In this document: positions 42,736-47,513 of the stretch, one piece after another
Position numbering within the stretch: position 1 is the stretch's first letter
Layout: each line of letters begins with the position of its first letter
NCBI RefSeq assembly: GCF_011947195.1
Contig: NZ_JAATVY010000007.1
Location: 186,001-250,000 of the forward strand
Source of the DNA: Planosporangium thailandense
GTDB lineage: Bacteria > Actinomycetota > Actinomycetes > Mycobacteriales > Micromonosporaceae
Direction: 5' to 3'
Length of the DNA: 64,000 nucleotides
The notes under the pieces: model-generated
Told to the model about the DNA's origin: nothing
What the model saw: the letters and a program-made list of their open reading frames with translations, nothing else
Database searches by the model: none
Position numbers and translations under genes: made by a program

Positions 42736-43956
42736 TCAGCGGTTGGGGTACCGGCAGGCCGCCCGACCAGCCGCGTCGAGCTGCGGCGGAGGCTGCGTCG
42801 ATGGCGTCAGCTCGCCGGAGCCGCCACCCGTCGTCACCTTGACATCCATCGCCTTGGTCGGTCCTTCGCCGCCCAGGCAGGCTACGGCGGCCAGGGCGAC
42901 CTGTTCACCCGGGTGGAGCACCGCCCGCAGCGGGCCCGGTCGCCACGCCGCCTCGAAGGCCGGTGCGCCGGTGACGGCCAGCCCGACCTGGTGCCACTCT
43001 CGACGCTCCGGCTGGTCGGAGTCGGCCGCGTAGTAGGCGGCGAAGCCCACCAGATCGACGTGCCGGCCGGTGGCCTGCAGGCGTAGGCTGCCGGGCTCAC
43101 CGGGGTCGGGAGCGCCGGTGAGGCTGACGGCGTCGGGGGCCGGTCGCTCCCGGGGACAGTGCGACAGCCGCAGGTCTGCCGGCGGGTTGCCGTGGACCAC
43201 GGCAGACGCGATGACCCCGCCCCCGTCAACGGTGAACCACCGGACGTCCGGTATCCCGGCTGTCGGGTCGTTCGCCTTCTCACCGATGCAGAAGCCGGTG
43301 AATCCGACGGCGCACCCGGGCGGCACGGTCGACAGCACCGGCGCGTCGAGCGCGGCGCCGTTGCGGATCCGCGTCCCGCTGGCGTACGTGGTGCCGATGA
43401 ATCGTGCCGAGCGTCGTACCTCGGGGCAGCCCGGGGCTGGCGCGGCCGTCGGCGTGGCGGTGCGGGCTCGGGAGGTCACCGCGTGGATGACCACTGCGAT
43501 GGCGAGGGCCGCCAGCGCGCCCAGGGCCGCTACCAGGGCGACGACCCGCCCGGGCCAGCGCCGGCCCGCCCGGTCCGGTGACGGCGCGGCAGGCTCGGGG
43601 GGCACGGCGCGGCCCGCGTGCTCGGCAGGCTCGGGGGGCACGGCGCCGTCCGCGTGCTCGGGGGGCCCTGCGGGCGTGACGGGCTCCGGTCTCAGGGCGG
43701 CGTCGAGTTCGATCCACCGCTCCCGCCACAGGTCCGGATCGCCGCCGCAGGCGCCGACGAAGGCGAGCACGACGTCCAGGCTCGGCTTGCGCGTCCCACC
43801 CGCGGCCTCCGACAGTGTGGTCGCACTGTACCCGGCGGCCTTCGCCAGCGCCCGGTAGGTCGGATTTCCAGCTTCCACGCGTAGTTTGCGCAGCTCCTGC
43901 GCGAAGCGTGGCAGCGGCCCAGCGGTGGGATCGATCGGCCGTTCCTGGCGAGCCAC
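42736..43956 (-). CDS. Membrane-anchored XRE regulator with extracellular SH3-like domain
   Basis: This 406-residue protein has a cytoplasmic helix-turn-helix (FAQELRKLRVEAGNPTYRALAK, then GYSATTLSEAAGGTRKPSL) and a Pro/Glu linker containing a duplicated 12-residue unit. A membrane helix at about residues 140-160 follows, and then an outside domain of 230 residues. The segment IRNGAALDAPVLSTVPPGCAVGF resembles a bacterial SH3-like wall-binding domain. The GTG start at 43956 has AAAGGA six bases before it. An inverted repeat overlaps its promoter, which suggests self-control. It may sense the cell wall and control the adjacent exported-protein operon. Confidence 0.75.
   Translation of the reverse strand: MARQERPIDPTAGPLPRFAQELRKLRVEAGNPTYRALAKAAGYSATTLSEAAGGTRKPSLDVVLAFVGACGGDPDLWRERWIELDAALRPEPVTPAGPPEHADGAVPPEPAEHAGRAVPPEPAAPSPDRAGRRWPGRVVALVAALGALAALAIAVVIHAVTSRARTATPTAAPAPGCPEVRRSARFIGTTYASGTRIRNGAALDAPVLSTVPPGCAVGFTGFCIGEKANDPTAGIPDVRWFTVDGGGVIASAVVHGNPPADLRLSHCPRERPAPDAVSLTGAPDPGEPGSLRLQATGRHVDLVGFAAYYAADSDQPERREWHQVGLAVTGAPAFEAAWRPGPLRAVLHPGEQVALAAVACLGGEGPTKAMDVKVTTGGGSGELTPSTQPPPQLDAAGRAACRYPNR
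43591..43662 (-). repeat. Two tandem 36-base units in the regulator linker
   Basis: Two copies, 43591-43626 and 43627-43662, differ by about three bases. Each encodes a 12-residue linker unit resembling AVPPEPAEHAGR. The copy number may vary between strains, and in-frame changes would alter linker length only. Confidence 0.8.
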
Positions 43957-43987
43957 ATCGCGTCCTTTCCATGCCGTGCCGCTGCCG

Positions 43988-44025
43988 GTCAATCAACTCC
44001 GGCCGATTGTACGGAATTGATTGAC
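43988..44025 (-). promoter_or_regulatory. Inverted-repeat operator flanking a TACAAT -10 box of the XRE regulator
   Basis: Reading the minus strand, TGTCAATCAATTCCG lies before TACAAT (44006-44011) and CGGAGTTGATTGACC lies after it; the arms are near-perfect inverted repeats (one mismatch over 14 bases). A repressor bound here would cover the promoter. The half-site TCAATCAACTCCG (43989-44001) recurs upstream of the exported-protein operon. Confidence 0.6.
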
Positions 44026-44080
44026 AGTCGCCGATCACCTGTCGGCAACCGCACAGTCCACAGAGGAGGAGAGATGAGGT

Positions 44081-44112
44081 CGGGGTGCCGGTAGGGACGT
44101 ACCGGCACCCCG
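44081..44112 (-). terminator. Hairpin terminator after the I36-SpoIID gene
   Basis: A 13-base perfect stem (CGGGGTGCCGGTA with its complement) has a six-base loop GGGACG. It lies just after the stop of the I36-SpoIID gene (44151) on the minus strand and ends the exported-protein operon. Confidence 0.8.
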
Positions 44113-44150
44113 AGATGAACGGCGGACCCACCCGGTGGGGCAGGTGACCG

Positions 44151-45083
44151 TCAGGAGAGGGCGATGTCCCGGTAGTAGTGGTGCAGGATCGTCCGGAAGT
44201 CCTTGCCCGCGGCCGCGAGGTCACGCGAGCCGTACTGCGACATCCAGTTCCCCTCCACCCAGCCACCGCAGGCGGTCGTCGTCGAGCAGTAGTGCGCCGC
44301 CAGGATGTTGCCGCTGCGCGTCATCCGGGTCGACCAGGTGCGGTCGACGGCAGACGACGTCGACGCCAGGGCCGACGACGGCTTGTACACCTGGTCGGCG
44401 GTGTCGTCCCGGACGTCGTAGCACTGCCCGCCCGGGGTCTTCCGGGTCGAGTGCAGCGCCCAGTACCAGGCGTAGCTCTTGACGGCGACGGCTCCGGCGT
44501 CCAACGAGGCGTTCGGCCAGCTCGGCACCCACTCATTCGGGAGGACGTTCTTGACGTACGTCTTGAAATCGACCCGGTCCACCTTCCCCAGACTGACCCG
44601 GTAGACCAGGATCGAGGTCGGCGGCGTGGTGTTGGTGCCGTCGGTCCTGCATCCCGTCGGCGGCGCCCCGCCCAGCAGCTCGTGCGAGGCGTTGTTGTTC
44701 TTCAGCGTGGCGTTCAGGTTGCCCTTCGCACCGGGCGCGAAGTCCTGGTAACTTCCGGCGAAGTTGCTGTTGAAGTAGACCCGCACCGTCTTGCTGGTGC
44801 GGTTCCACACCGACGCCGCGTTGTTCTTCACGCACAGGCCCTGGCCGTTGCCGGCGCCCTTGAACTCGTAGCAGGACGGCTGGGTGGTCCCGTAGTCGTC
44901 CTGGGAGTCGGTGAAGTCGGAGACCGAACCGGCCTGGTTGCTGTTGAAGTAGTAGCAGAACTCGCCGCTGTCGCAACTGCCGTCGCGGTCGGCGGCGAAT
45001 GCCACGCCGGGCACCACCGTGACGCCCGCGAGCGCCGCCACGACCACGGCGAGGATGCCGAATACCTTCCTGCGGATGTTCAT
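44151..45083 (-). CDS. Exported protein with I36-type domain and SpoIID-like domain
   Basis: This 310-residue protein starts with a Sec signal ending near AFA. The first module (DGSCDSGEFCYYFNSNQAGS to KGNLNATLKNNNASH) is a peptidase-inhibitor I36/crystallin-like domain. The second module is SpoIID-like: VDRVDFKTYVKNVLPNEWVPSW carries the expected acidic residue, then SLDAGAVAVKSYAWYWA and WMSQYGSRDLA. SpoIID cleaves glycan strands lacking peptides, so this is likely a wall hydrolase. The I36 module is about 85 percent identical to that of the next upstream gene. It is last in the operon. Confidence 0.82.
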   Translation of the reverse strand: MNIRRKVFGILAVVVAALAGVTVVPGVAFAADRDGSCDSGEFCYYFNSNQAGSVSDFTDSQDDYGTTQPSCYEFKGAGNGQGLCVKNNAASVWNRTSKTVRVYFNSNFAGSYQDFAPGAKGNLNATLKNNNASHELLGGAPPTGCRTDGTNTTPPTSILVYRVSLGKVDRVDFKTYVKNVLPNEWVPSWPNASLDAGAVAVKSYAWYWALHSTRKTPGGQCYDVRDDTADQVYKPSSALASTSSAVDRTWSTRMTRSGNILAAHYCSTTTACGGWVEGNWMSQYGSRDLAAAGKDFRTILHHYYRDIALS

Positions 45084-45097
45084 CTCTGCAACGCCCT

Positions 45098-45922
45098 TCA
45101 GAAGTGGAGCATCCACTGGAAGTCACGCTCGGCCTGGCTGACATGTACGTGCGAGCGCGTGCCGTACGCGTGCACGTTGTTCCAGTTGTATTCCTCGACA
45201 TCGAAGGAGCCGTCGCTGTAGACCTTGTTCACGTACGCGACGTGGCCGTACTGGCCGTGAGTGTCGTTGACCGCGATCGCGCCGACCTTCGGTGTCTTGT
45301 TGACCGTCACGCCGATGGCCCGGGCGGCGTTGTCCCAGTGCTCGGCGTTGCCCCAGGTGACTCCCCCGTAGGAGTTGCTGAAGTTCGGGACGCCGAGCCG
45401 GCTCGCGATCCGGTACGCGGCGAAGGCGGTGCAGTTGTTCTGCGCGAAGCCGCGCGGGTTGCCGTCGTAGTCGTTGCGCGGGGTCTGCGCGCCGCCGCCC
45501 CCGTTGCTGCCGATCATGTGCGAGGCGTTGTTGTTCTTCAGCGTGGCGTTGAGGTTGCCCTTGGCGCCGGCCGCGAACGACTGGCTCGCCCCGCCGTAGT
45601 TGCTGTTGAAGTACACGGTCACCGTCTTGCTGGTGCGGTTCCACACCGACGCCGCGGTGTTCTTCACGCACAGGCCCTGGCCGTTGCCGGCGCCCTTGAA
45701 CTCGTAGCAGGACGGCTGGGTCGCCCCGTAGTCGTCGACCGATCCGGTGAAGTCGGAGACCGAACCGGCCTGGTCGCTGTTGTAGTACAGGCAGAACTCA
45801 CCGCTGTCACAGACCCCGTCGCGGGACGCCGCGAGCGCGGGCGAACCGGTGGCCAGGAGGGAGGAGGTGGTGACGGCCAGCGCGGCGCCGGCGACGGTGA
45901 GAGCCTTGCGAAAGTTCAACAT
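45098..45922 (-). CDS. Exported protein with I36-type domain and CHAP amidase domain
   Basis: This 274-residue protein has a Sec signal (cut near ALAAS), an I36-type module, then a CHAP domain with the catalytic Cys164 (QNNCTAFAAYRI) and His227 (YGHVAYV). CHAP proteins cut peptide cross-links in peptidoglycan. I chose the ATG at 45922, where GAGGAAC sits just upstream; the frame runs to 45946. The next gene begins 14 bases after its stop, so the operon is tight. Confidence 0.88.
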   Translation of the reverse strand: MLNFRKALTVAGAALAVTTSSLLATGSPALAASRDGVCDSGEFCLYYNSDQAGSVSDFTGSVDDYGATQPSCYEFKGAGNGQGLCVKNTAASVWNRTSKTVTVYFNSNYGGASQSFAAGAKGNLNATLKNNNASHMIGSNGGGGAQTPRNDYDGNPRGFAQNNCTAFAAYRIASRLGVPNFSNSYGGVTWGNAEHWDNAARAIGVTVNKTPKVGAIAVNDTHGQYGHVAYVNKVYSDGSFDVEEYNWNNVHAYGTRSHVHVSQAERDFQWMLHF

Positions 45923-45982
45923 GGGGTTCCTCTTACGTAAGGTCATGAATGATCGGTGGTTCGGTGTGCCTCGGGCGCCGGA

Positions 45983-46882
45983 TCAGTGCATGCGCTGGTA
46001 CTCCTCCCAGGTGTGGATCGGGACCCGTGGCCCGTCGTCCGGGCCCCGGTTCGCCAGGCCGTTCAGGCCGAGGTAGTAGTCACCGGTCTGGTGTTGGGCC
46101 TGGCTGGACAGGTCGGTGTCATTGATCGCCGCGGCATGGATGTGCCACGGCCAGTCGCCCTGGCTCGGGTCGCGGACCCAGGCGGCGAAGCCGACCTGCC
46201 GCAGAGCGCGGGCGACCGCGGTGCGGGTAGCGGCGGACATCCCGGTGACGGCGACGTCGACGACGCCGCCGCCGTCGTGGGTGCCGGCCGAGGTCGGGTC
46301 GCCGCCAGGGTTGTACGAGCCCTGCTGGAGCACGAGGCGGAAGCCGAGCAGACGCTCGGCCTCGGTGAGCATCGCCTGGGTACGGGCGTCGACGACGTAC
46401 CCGTCGCGCTGGACCCGCGCGCCCGCGCTGATCGTGTGGGTGACCGTGAACCGGTTCTGCCCGAGCTTGGTCAGCGACGCCGCGCCGGGCAGTCCGTTGG
46501 CGGCCAGCCCCGTGTACCCGAGCGAGCGCTGGTAGGCCGCGTACGCCGAGACGGTCTCGGTGCCGAAGTACCCGTCGACCCAGCGGGCGTCCAGGAGGTG
46601 CCGGGACTGGAGCGCCTGCTCGACGGCCAGGACGGCGGCCTTCGCGCCCGGGGTCAGCGTGTGGTCGGCGCGCCTGGGGTCGATCTGGGCAGCCAGGACG
46701 GTCGCTTCCATGTCGACGGTGGGCAGTGCAGCGGCGGGCGTGGCCGGCCGTGCTGTGGCATCGGACGACGCCGCTCCGCGGGTCGCGGCGGACGCCGATG
46801 CCGCGCTCAACGCCACGCCACCTACCACCGTGAAGGCCGCGAGCAGCCCCGTTGCGGTGGCCCGGATCCTTGTCACCTTCAT
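45983..46882 (-). CDS. Exported peptidoglycan-binding, M15-like zinc peptidase
   Basis: This 299-residue protein has a Sec signal and a peptidoglycan-binding-like helical domain (about residues 75-140; WVDGYFGTETVSAYAAYQRSLG). The C-terminal domain has a possible metal site: His202 and Asp209 in GTHDGGGVVDVAV, and His247 and His249 in WPWHIHAA. This is the HxxxxxxD...HxH pattern of M15-type D,D-/L,D-carboxypeptidases. It is the second gene of the exported-protein operon, 60 bases from each neighbour. Confidence 0.8.
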   Translation of the reverse strand: MKVTRIRATATGLLAAFTVVGGVALSAASASAATRGAASSDATARPATPAAALPTVDMEATVLAAQIDPRRADHTLTPGAKAAVLAVEQALQSRHLLDARWVDGYFGTETVSAYAAYQRSLGYTGLAANGLPGAASLTKLGQNRFTVTHTISAGARVQRDGYVVDARTQAMLTEAERLLGFRLVLQQGSYNPGGDPTSAGTHDGGGVVDVAVTGMSAATRTAVARALRQVGFAAWVRDPSQGDWPWHIHAAAINDTDLSSQAQHQTGDYYLGLNGLANRGPDDGPRVPIHTWEEYQRMH

Positions 46883-46943
46883 GCCTTACTTCCTCCTACG
46901 TCGTGTGGTTGAACGTCTGCCGCGACCCGGTCCCGGTCGGGGG

Positions 46944-47366
46944 TCAGCACCGGGTATCGGTCTCGGCCTTGGCCACGTCGGGGAAGAAGCCGACGGCGCG
47001 GGTGCACGCGGACAGCGTGTTGGTGCCCGAGGACCACACCTCACTGCCGCCCCCGCAGCGCAGGCCGTTGAGCGTCATGTCGTTGCGATTGGCGATGGCG
47101 GCGCACACGGTCCAGCCACCGTGCGTGCTGCGGTACGACTGCCAGACGTAGGTGTAGCCGTAGTTCTTGCCGCACCCCTTGAACTGCTTCACCGACGCCG
47201 CGGTCTGGCCACCGACCTTCACGTATGCCGTACTGCCGATCTGGACCGCACCCGGACAGCCGGGTGCCGACTCGGCCGGCGCCGCCCACCCCGTCGTACC
47301 GGCCGTCGCCAGTGCCATGACCGGACCTGCCATCAGAGCCGCCAGGTACCCGCTCGTTCGCTTCAT
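46944..47366 (-). CDS. Small exported protein of unknown function
   Basis: This 140-residue protein has a Sec signal and a mature part of about 105 residues with five cysteines. No domain is recognised with confidence. The pattern QSYRSTHGGWTVCAAI, then RNDMTLNGLRCGGG, is reminiscent of small lectin-like or wall-binding modules. It is the first gene of the operon and sits after the shared dyad element. The start is the ATG at 47366, chosen because the signal peptide begins there. Confidence 0.65.
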   Translation of the reverse strand: MKRTSGYLAALMAGPVMALATAGTTGWAAPAESAPGCPGAVQIGSTAYVKVGGQTAASVKQFKGCGKNYGYTYVWQSYRSTHGGWTVCAAIANRNDMTLNGLRCGGGSEVWSSGTNTLSACTRAVGFFPDVAKAETDTRC

Positions 47367-47470
47367 CTCGTTCGGCCCTCTCTGCCGTCGGGTGCGTGCG
47401 GCGTACCGCCATCCCCGCAACGGGGACCAGCGGGTCGACCGCGTGTCGGCCCCTATTGCTACGGGCCGCA

Positions 47471-47513
47471 TTGATTGATCGACACCACTGCGACGGTGGA
47501 TCAATCAACTCCG
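47471..47513 (-). promoter_or_regulatory. Dyad operator upstream of the exported-protein operon
   Basis: TTGATTGATC (47471-47480) and GATCAATCAA (47499-47508) are exact inverted repeats 18 bases apart. The right arm extends to TCAATCAACTCCG (47501-47513), identical to the half-site at 43989-44001 by the XRE regulator. The stretch between here and 47664 holds no gene. Confidence 0.6.

Follow-up and report, generated by a model that had tools for sequence, protein, structure and literature searches.

ToxR and CadC control promoters from the membrane, each joining a cytoplasmic DNA-binding domain of the winged helix-turn-helix (HTH) kind through one transmembrane helix to an outer sensor. RodZ is built from an XRE-type HTH, a transmembrane segment and the RodZ C-terminal domain. 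Here we describe a locus at positions 42736-47513 of a 64,000-nucleotide stretch of DNA (the window) from Planosporangium thailandense, of the family Micromonosporaceae (contig NZ_JAATVY010000007.1, positions 186,001 to 250,000). A membrane-anchored XRE regulator lies there beside an operon of four exported proteins, and the same short sequence, the box, is found upstream of both. Comparison across genomes indicates that the regulator probably reads this box and controls the exported genes from the membrane.

The regulator resembles ToxR and CadC in having a cytoplasmic DNA-binding domain, one transmembrane helix and an outer part. It differs from them in its XRE HTH_31 domain, in an ectodomain with SH3-like and FN3-like parts, and in its wall-associated exported cargo; HTH_31 and HTH_3 were the only matches found on it, and it does not belong to the ToxR/CadC family. 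Nor does it belong with RodZ, since no RodZ Pfam match and no NCBIfam match at all was obtained. HTH_31-DUF2690 proteins share the type of HTH and differ in their C-terminal part, DUF2690, to which the window regulator gave no match. HTH-nSTAND1 and HTH-nSTAND1-WD40 proteins have a related N-terminal HTH, and differ in being large proteins in which the transmembrane helix and the SH3/FN3 ectodomain are replaced by an nSTAND1 NTPase domain. The SH3-like wall-binding domain of GH24/GH184 muramidases is the best structural match of the ectodomain, at 18-20% identity, and belongs to an enzyme rather than a regulator. Likeness to the GsmA-type sporangiospore hydrolase is confined to cargo repeats at two related loci (L037 and L090, both below cut-off), and does not extend to the regulator.

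The regulator and its predicted fold

The regulator and its parts are placed as follows.

42736..43956, minus strand: membrane-anchored XRE regulator, 406 amino acids, GTG start (HTH_31 1.7e-9; full-length homologues 48-50% identical; structural model)
43693..43917, minus strand: HTH DNA-binding domain, residues 14-88 (profile and model)
43468..43548, minus strand: predicted transmembrane helix, residues 137-163 (model helix and hydrophobic sequence)
43177..43410, minus strand: predicted SH3-like extracytoplasmic domain, approximately residues 183-260 (best Foldseek match 8b2g)
42829..43128, minus strand: predicted FN3/Ig-like extracytoplasmic domain, residues 277-376 (model strands; weak FN3 matches)

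The start, GTG at 43956, was placed from homologues, with GGAAAGGA at 43963-43970. The HTH_31 profile scores 38.3 bits against a gathering score of 27, which places the protein in the XRE/HTH_31 group. In the model an HTH, a single transmembrane helix (called from the model and from hydrophobicity) and two beta domains lie in one chain, the layout of a membrane-bound one-component regulator. The predicted local distance difference test score is 79.7 for the whole protein and 86.8 for the ectodomain modeled alone. In both Foldseek runs the best match of the ectodomain in the PDB is 8b2g, the SH3-like domain of a fungal muramidase (root-mean-square deviation 1.3 over 65 columns, TM-score by target 0.74, probability 1.00, but weak E-values of 8e-3 and 1.7e-2). 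Profile, model and fold match together bear out the preliminary description of this DNA, made from its letters alone, which had proposed a membrane-spanning XRE regulator with an SH3-like outside domain.

A related domain crystallized with triglycine ranks third in the run with the ectodomain alone; in a published crystal complex a muramidase-type SH3-like wall-binding domain holds triglycine (PMC10394673). At the level of sequence the regulator gave no SH3 profile match at E 0.1, and no relative was found by searching the PDB with it. Among plasmids, none of 69 records covered 80% of the regulator query in one place, and the matches listed (the best 10 of the 69) were to the N-terminal part only.

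A box shared by regulator and operon

The half-site TCAATCAACTCCG lies at 43989-44001 and at 47501-47513, exactly where the preliminary description had placed it, in the upstream regions of the regulator and of the operon. It had also been said to stand within a dyad in each case. Both dyads are real, and their geometries are opposite.

43989..44024, minus strand: dyad at the regulator promoter, arms 43989-43996 and 44017-44024
44006..44011, minus strand: TACAAT, candidate -10 of the regulator, within the dyad
47500..47513, minus strand: first half-site CGGAGTTGATTGAT of the putative operon operator (box match)
47472..47479, minus strand: second half-site ATCAATCA of the putative operon operator (layout comparison)
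47455..47461, minus strand: TAGCAAT, candidate -10 of the operon, +47 from the box, a position common to other loci

In the regulator dyad the CGG ends point inward, in the arrangement TCAATCAACTCCG-N10-CGGAATTGATTGA, with the arms flanking the TACAAT candidate as originally noted; the partner arm is a one-mismatch copy of the half-site at 44012-44024 on the minus strand. An extended consensus of the box, TTGTNCGGANTTGATTGAY, has an exact match at 44007-44025 on the plus strand within the same dyad. In the operon dyad (47472-47508) TTGATTGA comes first and ATCAATCA second.

The 13-base box is not common in the genome, and the refuting outcome named in the preliminary description, a widespread box, was not obtained: the whole 7,010,250 bases (7.01 Mb, in 114 contigs) contain two exact matches, both at this locus. 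Two further matches have one mismatch. One is the regulator's partner arm; the other, TCGATCAACTCCG, lies on a different contig and looks coding-like by eye. All three matches to a related form, GGARTTGATTGAY, are at this locus. A chance test on the window alone, in which 3 of 100 shuffles gave three matches at up to two mismatches, is less decisive than the genome count.

Conservation in Micromonosporaceae

We compared 354 genomes of Micromonosporaceae, scoring the five best regulator candidates in each; a genome is counted as lacking the regulator when none of these is a full-length match. While 80 genomes match at E 1e-30, mostly through the N-terminal HTH only, 29 carry the full regulator (XRE HTH, transmembrane helix, SH3-like and FN3-like ectodomain), at 34 loci chosen from the match table by ectodomain coverage with two-piece matches counted.

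The octamer TTGATTGA occurs 36 times in the 34 loci, every copy in the 308,788 bp that lie no more than 4 kb from the regulator, and is absent from their remaining 232,161 bp. A first-order Markov model predicts 0.94 copies near the regulator, a figure that is somewhat low for A/T-richer intergenic DNA because it uses regional composition. No other octamer with at least five A/T is as skewed toward the regulator, and the exact octamer is present at 29 of the 34 loci. The boxes lie mostly upstream of exported genes. Removal of boxes with flanks more than 60% identical (L079-L083, for example, are close relatives) left 20 non-redundant boxes, which include both arms of some dyads; among them CAA is found at +31 in 12 and a -10-like hexamer at +47 in nine. 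This co-occurrence strongly supports the proposal of a shared operator.

If the matching boxes were due to chance, or to a recently duplicated promoter fragment without function, one might expect them at two places only, as is the case in this genome. The box recurs across genera with shared spacing and is absent from the rest of the fetched loci, however, and these comparisons contradict such an origin, which we regard as scarcely credible.

The self-regulation suggested in the preliminary description is plausible in the window. Of the 27 loci with a recognized start motif (the other seven were not judged), only 10 have a box in the 400 bp preceding the regulator's own start, and autoregulation as a general rule was dropped. 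Most of these 10 loci are divergent, with the same box facing the cargo.

Boxes away from the regulator

The extended box TTGTNCGGANTTGATTGAY gave 97 matches at up to two mismatches in the 354 genomes, against 11 for the reversed pattern, a count not split by mismatch. At zero or one mismatch the count is 28, spread over 21 genomes, of which 18 belong to the 29 that have the regulator and 3 to the 325 others (Fisher 5e-20, partly circular because the extended pattern was derived from regulator loci). Boxes that are unlinked to the regulator and yet lie upstream of exported genes are less circular evidence. There are four of these (L143, L153, L156 and L232), in three regulator-bearing genomes, and L232 repeats the +31/+47 layout. 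L143 (~6007, minus strand) is a natural variant of the operator, with a +21/+37 layout in which the half-sites are exactly 10 bp closer and CAA is still 16 bp from the -10. At L160, where a contig ends, a box precedes an exported gene of NlpC type that is truncated; L160 may be the missing half of L107. L235 (~5623, minus strand) has a one-mismatch extended box before an exported protein of 121 amino acids, in a genome where no full-length match to the regulator was found; no clear exported gene was seen downstream of the boxes at L233, L234 and L167, which are also in such genomes.

The bare 13-mer GGARTTGATTGAY has 76 matches in the 354 genomes, against four for the reversed pattern. Of the 59 that are not beside a full-length regulator, 34 fall within open reading frames and 20 lie outside them without a TTGTNC prefix; the remaining five carry that prefix at zero or one mismatch, all outside open reading frames and four in regulator genomes. 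On these counts the bare 13-mer was dropped as a box to be trusted everywhere.

In a wider sample of 394 genomes of the class, full-length regulator matches came, besides the window's own genome, from five genomes, all of a single other family, Frankiaceae. The box is present at three of the five Frankiaceae loci, where it adjoins an exported SapA-like gene.

A related octamer lies within 200 bp upstream of 4 of 19 HTH paralogues. This lends some support to the view that the HTH reads the box, and it allows for cross-talk. Octamers of the TTGATTGT type stand upstream of HTH genes at L020 (an nSTAND1 protein), L008 and L034; L012, an HTH-nSTAND1-WD40 protein, has no such octamer upstream. At L174 (4982-6601) an HTH_31-DUF2690 paralogue with its different C-terminal domain is immediately preceded by the same box, and an exported gene diverges from it.

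The octamers at these paralogues, including the nSTAND1 protein (L020) and the DUF2690 protein (L018/L174), are also what would be seen if another HTH_31 paralogue or a global regulator read the box, the membrane protein being a bystander or modulator, and the one-mismatch extended boxes in 3 of the 325 genomes that gave no full-length match to the regulator point the same way. Against this, regulator and box co-occur strongly across genera and into another family, and the classes of cargo cluster on the regulator tree (33 regulators, L096 being left out for its internal stop), with 6 changes against 19.3 in shuffles, a clustering to which near-copies add. We consider a different reader improbable.

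The exported cargo

The operon beside the regulator runs on the minus strand from 47366 down to 44151, and its four products all have export-type N-termini (export was judged by eye from the N-terminus for every protein called exported here). From first to last the genes are as follows, with a hairpin between the operon and the regulator.

46944..47366, minus strand: small exported cysteine-rich protein, 140 amino acids (no family found in profile searches)
45983..46882, minus strand: exported peptidoglycan-binding protein, endolysin-like (phrog_9589 3.8e-14; PG_binding_1 below cut-off)
45098..45922, minus strand: exported I36-CHAP protein (CHAP 1.3e-17, I36 4.8e-14)
44151..45083, minus strand: exported I36-SpoIID/LytB-domain protein (SpoIID 1.1e-13, I36 1.4e-11)
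44081..44112, minus strand: strong hairpin, a possible terminator, without a clear T-run

As first described, the operon encoded SpoIID-type, CHAP, M15-type and small exported proteins. The SpoIID, CHAP and small proteins stand, although the SpoIID_LytB model scores 81 bits, slightly below its cut-off of 83.3. The M15 identity was dropped: it has a His/Asp pattern by eye only, without profile or PDB support, and the profiles matched are of peptidoglycan-binding and endolysin type. The SpoIID and CHAP enzymes each carry an I36 domain, and the two domains lie within an 87%-identical, 300-nucleotide duplication inside the operon (44682-44981 and 45518-45817). Neither the I36 domains nor the hairpin had figured in the preliminary description.

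An exported gene lies beside the regulator at 33 of the 34 loci, with none found at L097. Cargo was classed by tblastn and inspection of neighbors, with profiles run on ten representatives and the others assigned by tblastn similarity. Wall hydrolases, the targets originally proposed, are cargo in the window and at 10 of the 34 loci with the window included (12 counting L092 and L098); the cargo in general is of several exported kinds. The hydrolases are NlpC/P60 proteins at L037, L103, L104 and L107, with repeats that match the GsmA model and that we take to be SH3; a CHAP protein with GsmA-model-type repeats at L090 (the L037 and L090 repeats are below cut-off); CHAP proteins with SapA-like repeats at L093 and L100; and GH25 and M23 proteins, each with a SapA-like end, at L101 and L108. 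L092 and L098 have SapA-like cargo, with M23 and a relative of the window's peptidoglycan-binding protein nearby. The other cargo consists of small exported proteins, I36-like at eight loci, SapA-like (a descriptive name, with no model behind it) at five and L035-type at seven, with L091 having its own kind.

I36 and SapA-like small exported proteins also occur fused to hydrolases. The SapA-like domain is repeated behind CHAP (L093, 7043-8701) and single behind GH25 and M23 (L101, 8426-10387), and its position behind catalytic domains suggests that the small SapA-like proteins may be stand-alone wall-targeting modules. At L096 the regulator has an internal stop, yet box and SapA-like cargo adjoin it, with relatives of the I36-CHAP protein from the window ~2 kb away. 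On the regulator tree the window groups with L090, L092 and L098 (99/96).

The cargo bears on what the circuit might sense. It could be real and serve development (sporulation) or competition, releasing lytic or coat proteins to the cell exterior in response to some other ligand. The match of cargo repeats to the sporangiospore hydrolase GsmA model, below cut-off, would fit this, as would the SapA-like cargo, whose name we presume to be spore-associated. An SH3-like ectodomain with wall-binding neighbors in the PDB argues for wall sensing instead, as do the peptidoglycan-binding or wall-lytic genes beside the closest relatives of the regulator, L090, L092 and L098. A circuit of this other kind, which overlaps the core of the reading we prefer, is possible if rather doubtful. 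An extracellular wall signal is suggested by the predicted fold and the cargo, and a wall ligand for the ectodomain is a finely balanced proposition that we hold tentatively.

A model for control from the membrane

Judged by sequence, this is a conserved pair of regulator and candidate operator with variable, wall-associated exported cargo. We propose a membrane-anchored one-component regulator whose cytoplasmic XRE-type HTH would bind CGGARTTGATTGAY boxes, with one transmembrane helix joining the HTH to an SH3-like and FN3-like outer part for which peptidoglycan or fragments of the wall are the favored contacts. At the operon the half-sites would be approximately three helical turns apart and centered near -42, given a start site near +59 for a -10 at +47; the promoter's -10 appears to be conserved and of TAGCAAT type, and a -35 is not visible. 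A position near -42 is common among activators that contact polymerase, so this arrangement favors activation, and the bound regulator would most likely activate transcription of the exported wall-associated proteins. We consider activation of the operon reasonably likely. At its own promoter the arms of the inward-facing dyad flank TACAAT, which suggests that the regulator most likely represses itself.

The same regulator and operator could alternatively repress the operon, again from the membrane, with release when wall damage loads the ectodomain, a scheme that overlaps the core of ours. Many XRE proteins repress, and the second operon half-site overlies the -35/spacer region, and a protein sitting there can equally obstruct polymerase. 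The box center near -42 without a recognizable -35 is activator-like, however, and L143, with its half-sites 10 bp closer and CAA still 16 bp from the -10, also speaks against repression, which we find unlikely. Our estimates for these alternatives overlap and do not sum to one.

Several observations weigh against control of the exported genes by this regulator through the box and a wall-sensing ectodomain. Five of the 34 loci lack the exact octamer; at L085 and L091 a one-base variant stands next to the exported gene, and neither octamer nor variant was found at L101, L108 and L107, the last of which is truncated where its contig ends. Seventeen of the 27 judged loci have no box for the regulator itself. 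Away from the regulator, L153 and L156 lack the +31/+47 layout, no second half being seen at these offsets, and four extended boxes with one mismatch are found in three genomes without a full-length regulator match. Two of the five Frankiaceae loci, Frankia sp. QA3 among them, are without an exact box, and two of the three that have it are near-identical. Fifteen of the 19 HTH paralogues have no related octamer upstream. Every Foldseek E-value is above 0.001. Lastly, no sequence relation was detected between the sensor domain and the repeats that cargo hydrolases carry (hhalign probability 0.8%, 14 regulator rows against 7 repeats from 4 proteins), and the idea that they form one family was dropped.

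Implications

To our knowledge, wall sensing and the timing of wall hydrolysis in actinomycetes are poorly understood. We found no description of this system in open-access PMC titles and abstracts, a scope outside which most subscription papers lie. More speculatively, the locus may represent a new family of wall-reading membrane transcription factors in Micromonosporaceae and Frankiaceae that share one conserved operator code and control exported cargo of interchangeable kinds. The HTH-operator pair might then also be used by some nSTAND1 and DUF2690 proteins, as one DNA address for several kinds of sensor, and the small I36 and SapA-like proteins might be wall-targeting modules able to work on their own or as fusions with hydrolases. 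The regulator has a predicted wall-binding ectodomain, a defined candidate operator and named targets, and its conservation makes binding, direction of control and ligand directly testable. If the proposal is true, it would give a context to the I36 and SapA-like exported proteins.

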